17,720 nucleotides of DNA, from contig JAAYGE010000191.1 of the NCBI GenBank assembly GCA_012727835.1, positions 1 to 17,720 on the forward strand, given 5' to 3'. Under the pieces are notes generated by a model. It saw only the letters and a program-made list of their open reading frames with translations, was not told the DNA's origin and did no database searches. The stretch's first letter is position 1. Each line of letters starts with the position of its first letter. Of the stretch, positions 10,855 through 17,720 are shown piece after piece. The DNA comes from Bacillota bacterium. Lineage in GTDB: Bacteria; Bacillota_H; UBA994; UBA5500. A program made the position numbers and the translations under genes.

Positions 10855-11928
10855 TTATAGATGCCTATCTATTAGTGCTTGTCCTTTTAAGCGGCGTAGA
10901 CCTTCCGAGATGGCCCGGGCCCGTACCTCACCGATACCCTCCACCTCATCCAGAGCTTCAATGGAGGCCTCCATCACACCTTGCAGATTACCAAAATGAT
11001 CCACCAAGTTCTCCACCACCGAATGGGGAAGCCGCGGTATCTTCTGCAATATGCGGTAGCCACAAGGGGAAACCAGGCGCTCTAAAGCATTTAGGTTGGC
11101 GCCGTAGCCCATAAGACGACAGAAATTAATAGGTTCCAACAGCTCTTCCGAAGTAAATTCGGACATCTGCTCCCTAATCTCTTCGGGAGTACGGGTTTCC
11201 CCGGGAGCCATGTAGTCGCGAATTACAGCTAAGGATTCGCTTTCCGTATTACCGACCAGCTCTACCAGCTGCATGTTTACCAAGCGGCCTTCCGAACCCA
11301 GCTCCACTATGTAGCGTTTAATCTCAGCCACAATACGGGCCACCATTTCAAACCTTTGCATCACGTTGCATACATCGAAAACGGTAACCAAATCCTCAAA
11401 TTCCAACGCCCCCAGGTTAATGAGGGCCTGGTCTAAGACCGCCTTATACTTCTCCAGGGTTTGGATAGCTTGGTTGGCCTTGGACAATATTACGCTGATA
11501 TCCCGCAAGATATATTTCTGAGTGCCCAAGTAGAGGCTGATGATGTTCCGTCTCTGCGAAATAGCAATCACAATTTCATCGGTCATGCGGGCCACCCGCT
11601 CGGCAGTGCGATGACGAATACCCGTCTCCGTCGAGGGCACGCTGGGGTCAGGCACCAGCTGGGTGTTAGCATAAAGAATCTTCTTAGCATCGGCGCTGAG
11701 AATAATGGCGCCATCCATTTTAGCCAATTCATATAAGGCGGCTGGTGTAAAATCACACTGCAGTTGAAAACCGCCTTCCACCAGCTCTAACACTTGGGGA
11801 GAATCAGACAAGACAATAATAGCTCCTGTCTTAGCCCGCAGCACATTATCTAGTCCTTCCCTCAGTTGTGTGCCTGGAGCCATACTGCGCAAAGCCTTTA
11901 GCAGCCTTTCTTCGCGTTCTGTAGCCAT
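10855..11928 (-). CDS. disA: DNA integrity scanning diadenylate cyclase DisA
   Basis: Makes the second messenger c-di-AMP from two ATP and scans DNA for branched intermediates; in Bacillus it works with RadA, whose gene lies just upstream here too. 357 residues, full length: diadenylate cyclase domain (about 1-145) with the DGA motif at 72-74 and RHR at 105-107, a helical linker, and a C-terminal helix-hairpin-helix DNA-binding domain (about 290-350, with EVEGIGEVRARAI). The segment preceding RHR reads ETGIRHRTAER, with Ile104 where well-studied homologues have Thr. The ATG follows GGGAGG. It starts 34 bases after the radA stop, so disA expression probably depends partly on the radA transcript. 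Confidence 0.97.
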   Translation of the reverse strand: MATEREERLLKALRSMAPGTQLREGLDNVLRAKTGAIIVLSDSPQVLELVEGGFQLQCDFTPAALYELAKMDGAIILSADAKKILYANTQLVPDPSVPSTETGIRHRTAERVARMTDEIVIAISQRRNIISLYLGTQKYILRDISVILSKANQAIQTLEKYKAVLDQALINLGALEFEDLVTVFDVCNVMQRFEMVARIVAEIKRYIVELGSEGRLVNMQLVELVGNTESESLAVIRDYMAPGETRTPEEIREQMSEFTSEELLEPINFCRLMGYGANLNALERLVSPCGYRILQKIPRLPHSVVENLVDHFGNLQGVMEASIEALDEVEGIGEVRARAISEGLRRLKGQALIDRHL

Positions 11929-11962
11929 TGCCCAACCTCCCTATCCCATCTATCCCATCTAG

Positions 11963-12669
11963 TTACCTCATAACATACTGCAGCGCCTCAGCCACCGAGG
12001 CGACACCAATGAGCTCGATATCATCGTGTTTAAACCCAGAGCGCAAATTGCTGGCCGGCAAAATCACCCGTGAAAATCCTAGTTTTACCGCTTCATTAAC
12101 TCTACTTTCTAAACGGCTAACGCCCCGCACCTCGCCCGCCAAGCCCACTTCCCCCACAATCAGATCCCGGGGAGCCGGTGGCCGGTCGCGGAAACTGGAT
12201 ACTATCGCTAAAGCTATACCTAGATCGGCCGCCGGCTCTTGGATTCCAACACCGCCAACCGCATTCACATAGGTATCTTGATACTGTAATTGTAACCCTA
12301 AACGCTTTTCTAAAACAGCTAATATCATAGCCACCCGCCCGTTATCTAAACCGGAAGTCATTCGGCGAGGAGTGGCAAAACTGGTGGGTGCCACCAGCGC
12401 CTGCACCTCCACCAAAACTGGGCGCGTGCCTTCCATAGCAGCAACAACCACCGAACCGGCGACGCCTTCCGGCCGCTCGCCTAAGAACAGTTGGGAAGGG
12501 TTTTCTACCTCCCGCAACCCGTTTTCCCCCATTAGGAAAACACCGATTTCATAAGTAGAACCAAAACGGTTCTTTACGCCGCGTAAAATACGGAAGGATT
12601 GGTGCCTTTCTCCCTCAAAATAGAGCACCACGTCCACCATATGTTCTAACACCCGCGGGCCGGCAATCG
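11963..12669 (-). CDS. radA: radA exon 2: RadA C-terminal part (KNRFG motif and Lon-like domain)
   Basis: Continues RadA after the intron. The first two bases (CG at 12669-12668) complete Ser218, then Ile-Ala-Gly-Pro-Arg-Val-Leu-Glu-His follows, the exact continuation expected after HVTKDG. The RadA-specific KNRFG motif falls at about residues 250-254, and the rest is the Lon-protease-like domain that forms the hexamer scaffold. There is no ribosome site near the first possible internal start (GTG at 12652), so I regard this as the second half of a spliced gene rather than an independent gene. Exons 1 and 2 together give 452 residues, a normal RadA length. disA follows 34 bases later. Confidence 0.9.
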
Positions 12670-12693
12670 CTTATAACGGACCATGTCTTCATC

Positions 12694-13407
12694 CTAACTG
12701 CGAATAGCATACCCTTTTTCTGCCTTGACCACTATATCGCTATTGACGGCTAACCAAGCCACCACTTCCTCCACCCCTTGCTCCGCCAAACGGCTAATAG
12801 AGACTGCATTGCTGCGGGCCCGCCATAGGATAAAGAAGCCTTTAGCCAACTGGGCTTCCGGGGGCGCGCCGGCCGCGTTCTCCGGCCAGGGCGCCTGCCC
12901 ATATTGCCGTAACAACCCCATCAGGTCCAAAGCCCCATCCGCGTCCAATGGAGGTAGCGCCGCTGCCGTTTGGCTCTGCCAAGGCGATAACTGGCCGCCT
13001 AACCATTGCCATAGACGGCGGCCTATGCGATCGGCCAAAGATAGAGCCACCACCAGTTTCTGTCCCTCAAGGGCCACCGGCGGCGCCTCTTCCCGCCCAT
13101 CCACCAGCACATAACCATCGATGTAACGGGCTCGATAGGCCTGCTCCAGGGGACTCAGATCACCAAAAGGCCAAAACCGCAGGGCCAAATATTGATCATC
13201 GGGGTAAAGTAATAAATCGGCGAAACTAGGCCAGGGAGTGGAAGGTATGTTTTTAGCCAAGAGTTTTTGCCACAAGGTAAAGATCGCTTGGCTGCGTAGT
13301 AGGTCAGCCGTAGGTAGCAGCTTTTGATGCCTAAGCCGCAACAGCAGCTTTTGTGACTTGGCTGCCGGAGTTAGGAGTTGGGCATATGGCCTCTCAGGAT
13401 CCCTCAT
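12694..13407 (-). CDS. Intron-encoded protein of unrecognised family
   Basis: 237 residues from the ATG at 13407, which follows a strong AAGGAGGAATAAGG site; the frame fills the radA intron and stops seven bases before the J8/7-like sequence. A homing endonuclease is expected here, but no LAGLIDADG pair, GIY-YIG, HNH or PD-(D/E)XK motif is clear. It is rich in Trp (nine) and basic near the N-terminus (KSQKLLLRLRHQK). The middle part (LSPLEQAYRARYIDGYVLVDG, then LSLADRIGRRLWQWLGG) faintly recalls the second half of LAGLIDADG_2-type endonucleases, and the last 50 residues look like a winged helix (VSISRLAEQGVEEVVAWLA ... GYAIRS). Both are weak impressions. Base composition resembles the neighbours, so the gene appears long resident. 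Confidence 0.85.
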   Translation of the reverse strand: MRDPERPYAQLLTPAAKSQKLLLRLRHQKLLPTADLLRSQAIFTLWQKLLAKNIPSTPWPSFADLLLYPDDQYLALRFWPFGDLSPLEQAYRARYIDGYVLVDGREEAPPVALEGQKLVVALSLADRIGRRLWQWLGGQLSPWQSQTAAALPPLDADGALDLMGLLRQYGQAPWPENAAGAPPEAQLAKGFFILWRARSNAVSISRLAEQGVEEVVAWLAVNSDIVVKAEKGYAIRS

Positions 13408-13415
13408 CCTTATTC

Positions 13416-13440
13416 CTCCTTGTACATGCCCACTAAGGAG
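13416..13440 (-). promoter_or_regulatory. Hairpin that could hide the ribosome site of the intron gene
   Basis: CTCCTT (13440-13435) is complementary to AAGGAG (13421-13416), the ribosome-binding site of the intron gene. An overlapping alternative pairs CTTGT (13447-13443) with ACAAG (13423-13419). The two cannot form together. Ribosome sites masked by structure are known for other group I intron genes. Confidence 0.45.
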
Positions 13441-13564
13441 CAACAAGATAGTGGTTTCCTGCCGATTAGGCTAATAACCGCAGTTTTCACCACAGCCCCA
13501 AAGCGCCTTTTCGGCATACAGCCCAATACTTAACTGCTGGTTGCCCAGAAATTCGGGCCGATTG

Positions 13565-14216
13565 ACCCGTCCTTAGTTACATGACCAACTAAAAAAAGCA
13601 CAGTGCCAGTATCTTTTGCATGGCGAATTAAGCGACTGGCCGATTCGCGTATTTGGCTGACTGTGCCGGGAGCCGAGGTTAAGTTGGCCGAATAAACAGT
13701 TTGAATGGAATCGATAACCACAACCTGGGGTTGCAAGGCGGTCAAATGGCCATGGATGGCATCCAGCTCGGTTTCGGCGGCAATAAAAATAGGGCCCTCC
13801 GTTACCTGCAGGCGATCGGCCCGCATTTTAATCTGTTGCTGCGATTCCTCACCTGAAACGTATAATACAGAAACTGCCCGCTGGGCCAGCTGGCCGGCCA
13901 ACTGCATCAGCAGCGTGGATTTACCGATCCCCGGATCTCCACCGACCAAAACTACACCGCCGGGTACCAAGCCCCCGCCTAGGACCCGATCCAGCTCGGC
14001 CATATTGGTCGTCTGTCGTTCCCAGCTGGAACCGGTAACCTCCTGCAGTTTGAGAGGAGCATTGGCCGCTACAGCACGGCTGCCGCTAGCACCACGAGTC
14101 GGCACCACAATCTCTTCTTGCAAGGTACCCCATTCATTGCATTCGGGGCAACGCCCCAACCATTTCAATGCCTCGTAACCACAGGCCTGACAAACAAATT
14201 TGCTTTTTGTTCTTAT
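13565..14216 (-). CDS. radA: radA exon 1: DNA repair protein RadA, zinc finger and RecA-like domain
   Basis: RadA is a hexameric, RecA-like branch-migration helicase acting in recombination and repair. Exon 1 encodes the C4 zinc finger (Cys9, 12, 23, 26; CQACGYEALKWLGRCPEC), Walker A GGDPGIGKST (92-101), Walker B VVVIDSIQTV and the segment LFLVGHVTKDG; it breaks after the first base of Ser218. Without splicing, translation continues for ten more residues to a stop at 13532-13530 and yields a protein lacking KNRFG and the Lon-like domain. The start is unusual: family alignment and a GGGAGGTGGGG site point to an ATA codon at 14216, there being no ATG, GTG or TTG in frame nearby. The first in-frame ATG, at 14291, lies upstream of a TATAAT box. 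Confidence 0.88.
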
Positions 14217-14241
14217 CGGACCCCACCTCCCTCGTCCTAAT

Positions 14242-14247
14242 ATTATA
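14242..14247 (-). promoter_or_regulatory. -10 box of a probable radA promoter
   Basis: A perfect TATAAT on the minus strand about 26 bases before the proposed ATA start and just ahead of the GGGAGGTGGGG ribosome site. No good TTGACA is seen 16-18 bases upstream. If used, the transcript begins near 14235, which excludes the ATG at 14291 as start codon for that message. Confidence 0.5.
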
Positions 14248-14343
14248 CCATTGATTGACTGGCCCCGATAAAGGAAAAAGGCTGTTGGCATGGTTCCTCA
14301 TTCTTTGTGGGGCACAATAGGCCGTATTGCATAGCTCGGGTCC

Positions 14344-14568
14344 GTGGTCATACTAGAGCGCCTGTGCCCAACACTCTGTCGGAGAGAGCTCAGTTCGCCA
14401 AGGGCAGCGACGGCACTCGCACTGGTTGGATTAGTAGAACCAGTAAATGAGTCCAATGCAAACTACTATTTGAATAGGCCCTTAGGTAGCTCGGCCTGTT
14501 GTCGCTGCATATCCTTGGCTCCCTCGCTCTTTTTAACGTGGGCCCAACGCGCTGTACGTATGACCAAC
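14344..14568 (+). ncRNA. Structured RNA-like element of 225 nt with possible pseudoknot
   Basis: Nested pairings cover the whole element: terminal GTGGTCATAC/GTATGACCA (14344-14353/14558-14566); GCGC/GCGC (14358-14361/14549-14552); GCCAAGG/CCTTGGC (14397-14403/14513-14519); GCAGCGAC/GTCGCTGC (14404-14411/14501-14508); GG(C)ACTC/GAGTCC enclosing hairpin ACTGGTT/AACCAGT (14421-14427/14438-14444); and AATAGGCC/GGCCTGTT (14473-14480/14493-14500). Loop bases TAGTAG (14432-14437) match CTACTA (14463-14468), a likely pseudoknot. The last helix has a U-G pair on the plus strand that becomes A-C on the minus strand, favouring plus. No long reading frame fits. Its ends match the 45-bp element at 2491. 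The size is near that of raiA-type RNAs, but I cannot confirm any family. Confidence 0.6.
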
Positions 14569-14734
14569 GGCCCCATAGGGAGAGCTCTCTTACTAGAAAA
14601 AGTACGGGATTCTGAACTCCCCTCATATTAGGCGTAGCGGCGTACAGCTGTCGCCCTCGTGGGCCGACCAACGGGCGCCCCCTACGCATGTCCCTAAATA
14701 GCGATGTCGTAGGGGCGCCTCTGACAACCCTTTG
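14569..14734. other. Non-coding stretch with further inverted repeats
   Basis: No credible gene is seen here. Several inverted repeats are present: GGCGCCCCCTACG with CGTAGGGGCGCC (14674-14686/14708-14719, one bulge), the partly competing GCGTAG/CTACGC (14632-14637/14682-14687), GGGAG/CTCCC (14578-14582/14617-14621), and a TACTAGA sequence (14592-14598) also found at the left ends of both repeat elements. It may be part of a larger RNA with the adjoining 225-nt element, or the leader of the radA transcript. Confidence 0.4.
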
Positions 14735-14779
14735 CGTAAAACAGAGGCCCGGGGAGCCAGTGCTCTGGCCCCGGGCCTC
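14735..14779 (-). terminator. Terminator of the mcsB-clpC transcript
   Basis: An 11-bp GC-rich stem GAGGCCCGGGG/CCCCGGGCCTC (14744-14754/14769-14779), with further pairing in the loop, is followed on the minus strand by TGTTTT. The plus strand has no T-run after the stem, so it serves clpC. Confidence 0.85.
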
Positions 14780-14798
14780 GGGAGGGAGTATGCAATTA

Positions 14799-17231
14799 TT
14801 ATTCTATCTCGGCCTCTCTGGTAAAGGTCAGCTTGCCATCCACCGCATCGACCTTGATCAGATCGCCGGCCTTAAACTCGCCGGCCAGCATCTTCTCCGA
14901 CAATTCGTCTTCAATGTGGCGCTGGATGGCCCGTCGCAAGGGTCGGGCACCAAAGGTTGGGTCATAACCCACCTCGGTCAGGTGGTCTTTAGCCGCATCG
15001 GTCAGCACGATGCGCAGATCGTATTCCTCTAGGCGCTCGCCTAATTCGCGAACCATTAGATCCACGATCTGACGTAGCTCCTCTTTATCCAGTTGGTGGA
15101 ATACGATAATCTCGTCCACCCGGTTCAAGAACTCGGGCCGGAAGGTGCGCTTCAATTCCTCGGTTACCCGCTTCTTCATCTGCTCGTACTGATCCTGGCT
15201 ACGGGCCTCGTCATCGCCCGTATGGAAGCCCAGGCCAAAGCCTTTGCGGATGGAATGGGCACCCACGTTAGAAGTCATAATCAGTACGGCGTTGCGGAAA
15301 TCGACGGTGCGTCCCTTACCATCGGTCAAACGACCGTCGTCCAATACCTGCAAGAGGATGTTGAAGACTTCTGGATGGGCCTTTTCGATTTCATCTAAGA
15401 GCACCACCGAATAGGGTTTGCGTCTAATCGCTTCGGTCAGCTGGCCTCCCTCATCGTAACCCACATAGCCGGGCGGCGAGCCGACTAAGCGAGAAACCGC
15501 ATGGCGCTCCATGTACTCCGACATGTCGATGCGGATCATGGCATCCTCATCGGCAAACAGGGCTTCTGCCAGCGCCCTGGCTAGCTCCGTCTTACCGACA
15601 CCGGTGGGTCCTAGGAAGATGAAGGAACCGATAGGCCGTTTCGGATCTTTCAATCCGGCATGGGCCCGTCGCATAGCTCGCGCCAAGGAGCGTACCGCTT
15701 CCTTCTGACCGATAACCCGTTGGTGCAGAATTTCTTCCAACTTGAGCAAGCGCTCCGCCTCTTCTTCCGCCAGCTTATTCACCGGAATACCCGTCCAGCT
15801 GGACACGATGTAGGCGATATCATCAGCAGTAACGCTGGCTTCGTCACGAATGCGCTGGTTCTCCCATTCTTTCTGCTTTTCTTCCAGTTGCTTCTCCAGC
15901 TCCCGCTCTTCATCACGCAGTTCGGCGGCCCGCTCAAACTCTTCTGCCCGTTTAGCCGCTTCCTTCTCCTGGCGCACCAAGGCCAACTTCTCTTCCAGCT
16001 CCTTTAAGTTGGGAGGAGCCGTATGGGCTTGCAGCCGCACCCGGCTGGAGGCTTCATCGATCAGGTCGATAGCCTTATCGGGCAAGAAACGGTCGCTAAT
16101 GTAACGCGAGGATAGGTTAACCGCCGCCTCCAGCGCTTCGTCGGTAATTTTAACCCGGTGATGGGCTTCATAGCGATCCCGTAGCCCGCGCAATATTTCT
16201 AAGGCCTCTTCCTTGGAGGGCTCTGATACCATAATCGGCTGGAACCGCCGCTCCAGGGCCGCATCCTTTTCGATATGTTTCCGATACTCATCTAAAGTGG
16301 TGGCACCGATGCACTGGAGCTCACCCCTAGCCAGAGCCGGCTTGAGAATGTTGGCCGCATCGATGGCGCCTTCGGCTCCACCGGCACCGATTAGGGTGTG
16401 CAGCTCATCGATAAATAGAATAACGTTACCGGCCTGCTGAATCTCGTCCATCACTTTCTTGAATCGCTCTTCAAACTCGCCCCGATACTTGGTACCAGCC
16501 ACCACCGATGCCAAGTCCAGGGTCACAACCCGCTTGTCTTTAAGAATTTCCGGCACCTGTTCGGCGTAAATACGTTGGGCCAAGCCCTCGGCAATGGCCG
16601 TTTTACCAACGCCCGGCTCACCGATTAACACCGGGTTATTCTTAGTACGACGGCTGAGAATCTGTATTACCCGCTCAATTTCCTTATCCCTGCCTACCAC
16701 CGGGTCCAATTTCCCCTGCTGAGCTAGGCCCGTCAAATCGCGCCCGAAAGAATCCAGAGTAGGCGTGTTGGAAGCGACCTTAGCTCTGCCGGTAGCCCCC
16801 GTATTCGGGCCCGACTTGCCAGCACCCGGTTGCAGCATACTCTGCTGGAAGCCCATGCTCTCCAGAATCTTAGCCGCCACACCGGTGCCTTCCTTCGTTA
16901 GCCCGATAAACAGGTGATCCGCATCTATGGCCGGCATACCATTGCTACGGGCTTCATAGAGGGCCAACTCCAGTACCCGCTTGACTCGGGCCGAATACCC
17001 TCTCACCTCGGCCCCTTCCTGTCCGCGACCGCCCAGTTTCTCCACCGATTCGGTCACCTGCTGGGGGGTGAGGCCCATCTTCTTAAAGGTGTTGACAGCC
17101 AAACCTTCTCCCGTATTTAACAAACCCAAAAGCAAATGTTCAGTGCCGATTATCTGATGGCCTAAACGTCTTGCCTCCTGCTCCGCTGCCACCATGGCAG
17201 CCTGAGCTTTCGGGGTCAATGGAAACATCAT
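14799..17231 (-). CDS. clpC: ATP-dependent Clp protease ATP-binding subunit ClpC
   Basis: 810-residue AAA+ unfoldase that feeds ClpP, and recognises arginine-phosphorylated proteins made by McsB. Domains in order: N-terminal Clp repeat domain (about 1-145), first AAA module with Walker A GEPGVGKT at 204-211 and Walker [11 protein letters not shown], a coiled-coil/UVR middle domain (about 415-475, rich in Lys/Glu) typical of ClpC rather than ClpB, and second AAA module with Walker A GPTGVGKT (about 545) and Walker [16 protein letters not shown]. The ATG at 17231 overlaps the mcsB stop (TAATG) and has AAAGGAGGG upstream. It ends at a terminator. In relatives, CtsR represses the ctsR-mcsA-mcsB-clpC operon; the promoter is outside this window. 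Confidence 0.98.
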
Positions 17232-17720
17232 TACTTCTTACCCTCCTTTAATCGCTGGCGAACTATCGCCGCCCTTTTATAATCACGAGTTTCTGGTTGC
17301 ATTTCTTCATCGGCAAATCGCTGCATCATGGCCGGTTGGGTCAATACCAACAGTTCGTTCTGGGTACGATAGGAAACCTCATTCAGTATCCCCAATTCAT
17401 GGCCTAAACGCACATCCGATAACAGGCGTATGGCTTCTTGCGAGGTTAAGAGCCGCGCATTGGTGAGGGTACCATAAGCCCGATACACCCTATCTTCCAT
17501 TGCCCAGCGGTTGGCCTTGAGTAGAGCTTGCTGGGCAGTCCTTTCTTGCTCCACAATCTGGCGAATGACAGCCGCCAGGTTTTGTAGAATCTCCTCTTCG
17601 CTGGGGCCCAAGGTTATCTGGTTGGAAATCTGGAAGAGGTTGCCCACCGCCTCCGTCCCTTCACCATATAACCCGCGCACCACCAATCCCACCTGGCCAA
17701 TGGCCGCCAGCACTTTACCA
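17231..17720 (-). CDS. mcsB: Protein-arginine kinase McsB, C-terminal part
   Basis: Only the last 162 residues or so are in the window; the frame is open to the right edge, entering as [21 protein letters not shown]. McsB phosphorylates arginines on misfolded proteins and marks them for ClpC-ClpP. The visible part matches the phosphagen-kinase catalytic lobe ([13 protein letters not shown]) and ends with RDYKRA, the RDxxRA phosphoarginine-binding motif of McsB. The stop overlaps the clpC start by one base. The Met/GTG at 17713 is an internal codon, not the start. Confidence 0.96.

Follow-up and report, generated by a model that had tools for sequence, protein, structure and literature searches.

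Comparative evidence for a group I intron traversed by an open reading frame in the radA gene of Bacillota

The stretch of DNA analysed in this work (the window, 17,720 nucleotides (nt) of contig JAAYGE010000191.1 from a Bacillota bacterium) carries on its minus strand a radA gene interrupted by an insert of 895 nt (12670..13564; coordinates are window positions throughout). The insert ends exactly at the radA junctions and contains a covarying RNA core, and on comparative evidence it is very likely a group I intron. The explanation as a whole, a self-splicing group I intron in radA with an open reading frame (ORF) encoding a protein, is judged highly probable from the sequence. In all, 35 loci were found to have the intron, always at this radA site.

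The insert and the radA exons

Exon 1 (13565..14291, minus strand; its start codon is provisional) corresponds to positions 3-225 of the RadA/Sms model TIGR00416 and exon 2 (11963..12669, minus strand, stop codon included) to positions 227-454, which makes RadA complete as far as the model goes. The 3' end of exon 1 reads ...GACGGGT at 13565 (in a longer form, ...GTAACTAAGGACGGGT) and its GHVTKDG end is also found in relatives. Exon 2 begins from 12669 with CGATTGCC..., also given as CGATTGCCGGCCCG, and the protein across the joined exons reads ...HVTKDG-S-IAGPRVLEHMVDV. The clean interruption of radA between 13565 and 12669, claimed in a preliminary description made from the window letters alone, was confirmed, the coordinates being exact and both halves matching TIGR00416.

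The frame of exon 1 meets a stop codon inside the intron (13530..13532, minus strand, in the window). Such a stop is present in 35/35 introns, lying 18 nt into the intron in 27 of them, 33 nt in seven and 63 nt, beyond helix P3, in one (L003). Open frames of 700-745 amino acids, considered as a read-through of exon 1, intron and exon 2, were ruled out on these grounds.

Comparative support for the group I core

The set of 35 introns consisted of the window, the loci L001-L003 and 31 loci showing both sides of radA; L124 and L130 (contig ends) and L134 and L135 (weak false matches without a radA junction) were dropped before counting. The junctions were set by the RadA frame and conserved motifs, assuming that the serine codon is split after its T. 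When four inserts were aligned, 98.6 % of 208 cells paired, in comparison to at most 43.3 % when the strands were slid, and four pairs showed two-sided changes. For six loci and 54 pairs the proportion was 94.8 % of 324 cells (28.7-41.7 % when slid), with two-sided changes in 15 pairs and 31 cells. The covariation score of this alignment was reached by 0 of 500 shuffles; its weakest measure, further pair types, was matched by 44 of 500. Across the 35 loci, with P10 excluded, 1468 of 1652 cells paired (88.9 %, versus 26-45 % when slid) and 23 pairs were compensated, versus 5-10 when slid. The group I identity put forward in the preliminary description is borne out in that the core was resolved and covaries across both the six and the 35 loci.

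The helices of the window, all on the minus strand, begin at the 5' splice site. The last base of exon 1 is T (U in the RNA) in 35/35 loci, and the exon side of P1, CGGGU (13565..13569), places this U opposite a G of the internal guide sequence GCCCG (13554..13558); the U-G pair and three G-C pairs are formed in 35/35 loci and the outermost pair in 5/35. The intron side of P10, CAAUCG (13559..13564), faces CGAUUG of exon 2 (12664-12669), with 6/6 pairs in the window, L001 and L002 and one mismatch in L003. The P2 hairpin (13535..13550), described before as CTGG-GCAA-CCAG and indeed present, shows two-sided changes in 5/6 pairs among the six loci, and its loop is of the GNRA type in all 35 (GCAA in 15, GUAA in 12, GAAA in eight).

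P3 is formed by UUGGGC (13521..13526) and GCCCAA (13378..13383, within the ORF); it covaries, every cell pairs in the 35 loci and one pair is exchanged between G-C (22) and A-U (13). The strands of P4, UGCCGA (13511..13516) and UCGGCA (13460..13465), covary in the six and in the 35 loci, with an exchange between A-U (31) and C-G (4), and replace the A-rich P4/P5-like stem suggested earlier, which was not upheld. The P5 extension hairpin (13478..13495) has two-sided changes in 5/7 pairs among the six loci and a GNRA loop throughout (GAGA in 27, GAAA, as in the window, in four, GCAA in three and GUAA in one). P6 pairs GGA (13457..13459) with UCC (13397..13399, within the ORF). The P7 5' strand, G-A(bulge)-GGCCAU (13386..13393, within the ORF), pairs with AUGGUCC (12678..12684); the G-C pair and the bulged A are present in 35/35 loci and an exchange between A-U (30) and C-G (5) was observed. 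The covarying P8 consists of UCCUAACU (13369..13376, within the ORF) and AGUUAGGA (12692..12699), which includes the ORF stop codon UAG; like P4, it is compensated across the 35 loci. The intron ends with the predicted terminal G (12670), again in 35/35 loci.

The 3' core of the window, GATGAAGACATGGTCC, is a close match to aUgAAGAUAUAGUCu of the RF00028 consensus; its likeness to the group I 3' core had been noticed in the preliminary description. The RF00028 consensus for the P7 5' strand is aAGACUA; the sequences compared with the 3' core and with this strand were AUGAAGACAUGGUCC and GAGAGGCCA in the window and CAGAGACCA in L003. Some pairings first drawn by hand, namely a GUGG/CCAC stem, an extended P3 containing a bulged U, and P7 at GGAUCC, are broken in relatives and were discarded.

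Several observations weigh against this structure. P10 fails in 5/12 cells of L094 and L095; good support for the CAATCG/CGATTG pairing proposed earlier, which is present in the window, is confined to the window's clade. The outer P1 pair is non-standard in 30/35 loci; of the GCCCG/CGGGT pairing described before, the part with U-G at the splice site stands and the fifth pair, C-G in the window, does not form in those 30. An A-G cell occurs in P7 in 18 loci and C-A in 13, one pair of the P5 hairpin is C-C in 31, and the outer P8 pairs are loose. Finally, P6 (GGA/UCC) is invariant in 35/35 loci and therefore provides no covariation.

The single insert sequence is only suggestive, since a loose P3-P4-P7-P8 descriptor, designed after the sequence was seen, matches the real insert and also 4 of 400 dinucleotide shuffles.

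An open reading frame through the core

The insert contains an ORF of 237 codons plus stop (12694..13407, minus strand), not mentioned in the preliminary description, and a Shine-Dalgarno-like AAGGAGG is seen ahead of it (13415..13421, minus strand), with similar sequences in L001-L003. The ORF begins beside P6 and covers the 5' strand of P7, the 3' strand of P3 and the 5' strand of P8, and the 669 bases separating the P8 strands of the window are nearly all ORF. Its stop codon, placed within the P8 3' strand in the window, lies elsewhere before, in or just past P7. In the 34/34 readable introns the splice site follows the P7 3' strand after no more than 4-11 nt, and the introns therefore have no P9, a peripheral domain (a 2-nt P9.0 was not looked for). 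In L002 the contig has 142 N after P7, directly ahead of the 3' splice site, and these probably mark a gap in the scaffold.

On the comparative evidence the guide sequence is paired with the end of exon 1 in P1, with U-G at the cut, P3, P4, P6, P7 and P8 make up the standard core, and P7 has the G-C pair and bulged A that are the guanosine site in group I introns. Splicing is what we infer from this arrangement. Guanosine docked in P7 would cut after the U, and the freed U would then attack after the terminal G, joining the exons and restoring a complete RadA. A ribosome coming from exon 1 would halt 18-63 nt into the intron, mostly before P3, and owing to this early stop the core would stay free to fold. 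A ribosome at the ORF start should unfold the ribozyme; since the ORF start overlaps P6-P7-P3-P8, one RNA presumably could not be translated there and splice at once. In the accessible text of PMC3984707 early in-frame stops are viewed as stalling the ribosome and letting the intron fold, and ORFs reaching into core sequences are connected with tightly controlled expression.

The presence of an ORF with its own Shine-Dalgarno-like site, together with GTG/ATG codons soon after the start of exon 2, would also fit a radA gene split in two without any splicing, its halves being translated separately on either side of an unrelated small gene. The beginning of exon 2 speaks against this. Its codons 1-7 (SIAGPRV) are conserved as protein while changing synonymously, the mean nonsynonymous (pN) and synonymous (pS) proportions of change being 0.000 and 0.584, respectively (six pairs, four close loci). 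The seventh codon is the possible GTG restart in 3/4 loci, and L001 has GTC instead. Moreover, in 35 loci the radA junction coincides exactly with the end of a covarying RNA core, and the split into separate genes was regarded as very improbable in comparison with an intron.

Detection by Rfam models and motif scans

No group I match was obtained with Rfam in the window, either at the gathering score over its whole length or at an expectation value (E) ≤ 1 over 12500-13800, and at E ≤ 10 over 13360-13600 the only match was a meaningless one to Tombus_IRE (4.7). The same was true of L094, L095 and four weak-match loci at E ≤ 0.1 and of 13 other carrier loci at E ≤ 1. Across 15 genomes in the class of G001, among them the carriers G001-G003, RF00028 gave no matches; the control with this model was positive in 3/14 named genomes. 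In total, the intron was detected by Rfam/RF00028 in 0 of the 19 carriers tested (of 35). The preliminary description had proposed a search with the Rfam group I model and had counted the absence of a group I core in covariance analysis as refuting the intron. The Rfam search fails at every threshold tried and, taken alone, would have counted as such a refutation, but a core was found by comparing relatives. The likely cause of the failure is that about 670 bases, nearly all of them ORF, sit in L8; a long ORF in this loop probably blinds the Rfam model.

The 16-base 3' motif matched viral contigs 54 times, about the chance level by a rough estimate. When 20 of the 54 matches were run through Rfam, a single group I intron was detected, away from the motif (L047), so the 3' motif alone proves nothing. 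This intron (L047:2834-3050, minus strand; 53.5 bits) is located on a viral contig and no relation to the radA intron was seen.

Distribution and evolution of the intron

The relatives found at the DNA level through the ORF were L001 (JAKOXL010000013.1), L002 (DIPA01000097.1, Firmicutes bacterium UBA5500) and L003 (JAAYHE010000036.1), and in 3/3 of them radA carries, at the same position, an insert containing the ORF. Of 15 genomes in the class of G001, three had the ORF and ten had radA in one piece, above the family cut-off; G007 gave no RadA-core match in that search. In G004 (L162, around 780-820), which belongs to the same order as the carriers and has an intron-free radA, a frameshift was noticed about 30 nt past the intron site, either real or an assembly error.

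Two covariance models were used to look for further introns, R1 built on the 5' half of the intron and R2 on six sequences. With R1, 398 genomes of the phylum gave two strong new matches beyond G001-G003, namely L094 and L095, both in radA, and weak matches in 13 further genomes (E 0.01-0.84). Further weak model matches were obtained in ten genomes (E 0.002-0.044). Among the weak candidates, the alignments of L097-L099 look like chance, and the match in L096, likewise a chance one, falls on the strand opposite to a purine riboswitch (L096:1468-1569, minus strand).

R2 matched 33 of 154 genomes in the class of G331 at E ≤ 2.1e-15; one more match, at 0.07, was false. TIGR00416 matched 106 of the same 154 genomes at E ≤ 1e-30, and its match breaks near position 226 in 33 of the 106, which are the same 33 genomes as those with a strong R2 match. 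In these the first parts end at 226-228 and the second begin at 217-226, with a single part in G479 and G507 (list counted by eye). The remaining TIGR00416 matches were unbroken in 70 genomes, broken elsewhere in G433 and partial in G424 and G518.

Homologues of the second type of intron protein, carried in this other class, came from a Sulfobacillus acidophilus metagenome-assembled genome (MAG), Sulfobacillus harzensis and a Thermaerobacter sp. MAG, all annotated as 'hypothetical protein'. The names suggest that the class is probably Sulfobacillus-like, and two Bacillota classes carry the intron, one of them apparently of this kind. Neither of the two protein alignments picked out a relative among viral contigs.

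The distances of RadA and of the ORF product were correlated (Mantel test, Spearman), with coefficients of 0.83 over 35 loci and 0.63 within 30 and with 0/999 permutations in each case. Placed on a tree of 64 RadA rows, the intron requires at least three forced changes (four in the best tree), and the carriers fall into the window's clade (4), a clade with 30 carriers, and L128. For each of the 29 intron-free rows of the tree the longest frame was used; L013, L014, L145, L153 and L156 are on very long branches and probably represent wrong frames, and L148, L152, L155 and L158 also lack the expected motif. The position of the intron-free L160 and L161 inside the clade of 30 suggests an intron loss. 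Within clades the intron appears to have been inherited along with radA; between clades, separate gains, an old transfer, or an old origin with losses would account for its distribution. The divergent carrier L128 (G438), whose RadA falls outside the two other carrier clades, has no ATG, GTG or TTG directly before the DPQR of its ORF, and its P6 looks extended by eye.

The intron-encoded protein

A search with the ORF among 5.8 billion proteins returned 19, including a near-copy of the window protein, none of them with a precomputed Pfam domain. The window protein matched no Pfam family and the 19 relatives gave chance-level Pfam matches only (best E 0.012). For LAGLIDADG, GIY-YIG and HNH no Pfam match was found with the window protein to E 10 or with the 19 relatives to E 5. 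The precomputed Pfam fields were empty in 20 proteins of the second type, a sequence-profile search of the PDB with the intron protein gave no matches, and NCBIfam gave a single chance match (0.23) for seven relatives. Comparison of the predicted structure using Foldseek yielded nothing in the PDB at E ≤ 0.001 and one match in a viral library (8e-4), an uncharacterised algal-virus protein with TM scores of 0.30/0.15. The predicted fold weakly resembles PD-(D/E)XK nucleases, and its C-terminal part is winged-helix-like.

A group II intron, an intein, an IStron or a translational bypass could each cleanly interrupt a protein gene, yet the lack of any Pfam family among these proteins argues against such an element, and the terminal G combined with the P1/P7 architecture is that of group I. 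No Rfam group II match was found in the window, and an intein is excluded, since in 35/35 loci the frame of exon 1 meets a stop no more than 63 nt in and no in-frame fusion to both flanks exists. These elements were left with a negligible likelihood.

The intron protein constitutes a new family, and purifying selection acts on it. In 31/31 further loci the ORF is open, over 174-225 codons counted from the D of DPQR. In the four close loci pN was 0.18-0.30 and pS 0.69-0.78, and in the other class the ratio of nonsynonymous to synonymous substitution rates (dN/dS) was 0.09-0.40 in 10 of 11 chosen pairs, several of the ten having dS >1 and the eleventh being saturated. Synonymous change was lower in the first 18-20 codons, at 0.48 versus 0.73-0.81 elsewhere in the close loci, and also lower there in 11/11 pairs of the other class; a reduction of this kind would be expected where the bases also take part in helices. 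The N-terminal DPERPYAQLLTP is the best conserved segment of the protein, and in the window type the first 12 residues are predicted to be disordered (pLDDT, the per-residue prediction confidence, <50), whereas those of the second type are not, with values of about 72-74. Such a best-conserved and yet predicted-disordered N-terminus of the window type fits with the same bases forming RNA helices.

The weakly nuclease-like predicted fold raises the question whether the protein is an active homing endonuclease that keeps a genuine group I intron mobile. In an alignment of 70 proteins, from which P0016 (a fragment) and three repeated rows were excluded and in which near-copies remain, only K20, R24 and R196 are invariant outside the RNA-coding N-terminus. 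No acidic residue is conserved there at 75 % or above across both types, although D64 and D161 are invariant within the window type. The strand that we take, by eye, for the equivalent of the E-x-K carrier in Hjc reads R-F-W or similar. The alignment thus shows no candidate nuclease active site conserved across both protein types. In addition, the ORF distances follow radA and no viral carriers were found, and an active endonuclease is considered quite unlikely.

The protein could also serve a process other than splicing, e.g. DNA binding through the predicted C-terminal winged helix. The 3/3 loci found by the ORF search all lie in a radA intron, which argues weakly against such a role; the other 31 loci say nothing on this point because they were found through the RNA. 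A function of this kind seems unlikely. Since the protein is under selection and has no conserved active site, it may instead be a domesticated splicing cofactor (maturase), perhaps compensating for the missing P9, and the chances of this were estimated as even. A more far-reaching and rather doubtful proposal is that an ancient, vertically kept intron works as a switch, in which a nuclease-fold protein devoid of an active site would be a new type of maturase replacing P9 and the mutual exclusion of translation and splicing would self-regulate the ratio of the protein to spliced radA.

Surroundings of radA

The gene order McsB-like kinase, clpC, radA, disA-like (10855-17719 in the window) is common to L001 and L003, as judged by eye from ORF translations. 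About 500 bases between clpC and radA (14290-14799) contain no clear gene. A strong GC-rich hairpin followed by T's, terminator-like by eye, is situated just past clpC (about 14737-14779, minus strand).

Relation to known introns and intron proteins

Few bacterial protein genes harbour group I introns, and the usual picture of such introns is that they are mobile and do not persist. In two classes the radA intron has kept to the same position within a recombination gene, and it has diverged together with radA. It provides a natural case for examining whether a protein with a nuclease fold can turn into a maturase and in what way a single piece of RNA accommodates both translation and the folding of a ribozyme. 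It also implies that an intron with an ORF splitting its core can escape surveys relying on covariance models. The literature searched for group I or self-splicing introns with radA or Sulfobacillus, which covered mostly papers available without subscription, contained no description of such an intron, and the earlier remark that none is known in radA stands to that extent.

Bacterial protein genes hosting group I introns include those for flagellin, recA and nrdE, and also nrdF, according to the accessible text of PMC3984707, in which radA is not among the hosts named in the section on bacterial protein genes. The recA intron, like the radA intron, resides in a recombination gene. With the bacterial introns described in that text the radA intron shares the ribozyme core, the splice-site rules, a conserved host gene and an early in-frame stop. 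Its ORF overlaps the core from P6 to P8/P7, and other introns with ORFs into the core are mentioned there as well. It differs from the introns covered in the same text in the absence of P9, in a protein of no known family and in its long co-inheritance with the host gene. What is new here is the combination of an ORF through the core, the lack of P9, a protein that belongs to no known family and this co-inheritance.

In comparison to I-Ssp6803I, a bacterial homing endonuclease of the PD-(D/E)XK type (PDB 2ost), the radA-intron protein has no acidic active-site residue conserved across both types and possesses an additional C-terminal part of winged-helix-like appearance; the fold match is weak. 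I-AniI and the yeast cytochrome b maturase exemplify intron proteins kept by selection beyond homing, some of them without nuclease activity (PMC3943268, accessible part). The radA-intron protein resembles such group I maturases in being kept by selection, while its own maturase role is what we infer. Both of these maturases are presumably LAGLIDADG proteins, unlike the window protein, which has no Pfam family and whose relatives gave chance-level matches only.

Archaeal RadA and bacterial RadA/Sms are different proteins. The RadA intein of Pyrococcus horikoshii is also a splicing element in radA and responds to single-stranded DNA (PMC8987985, accessible part), but it acts by protein splicing, unlike the radA intron presented here.
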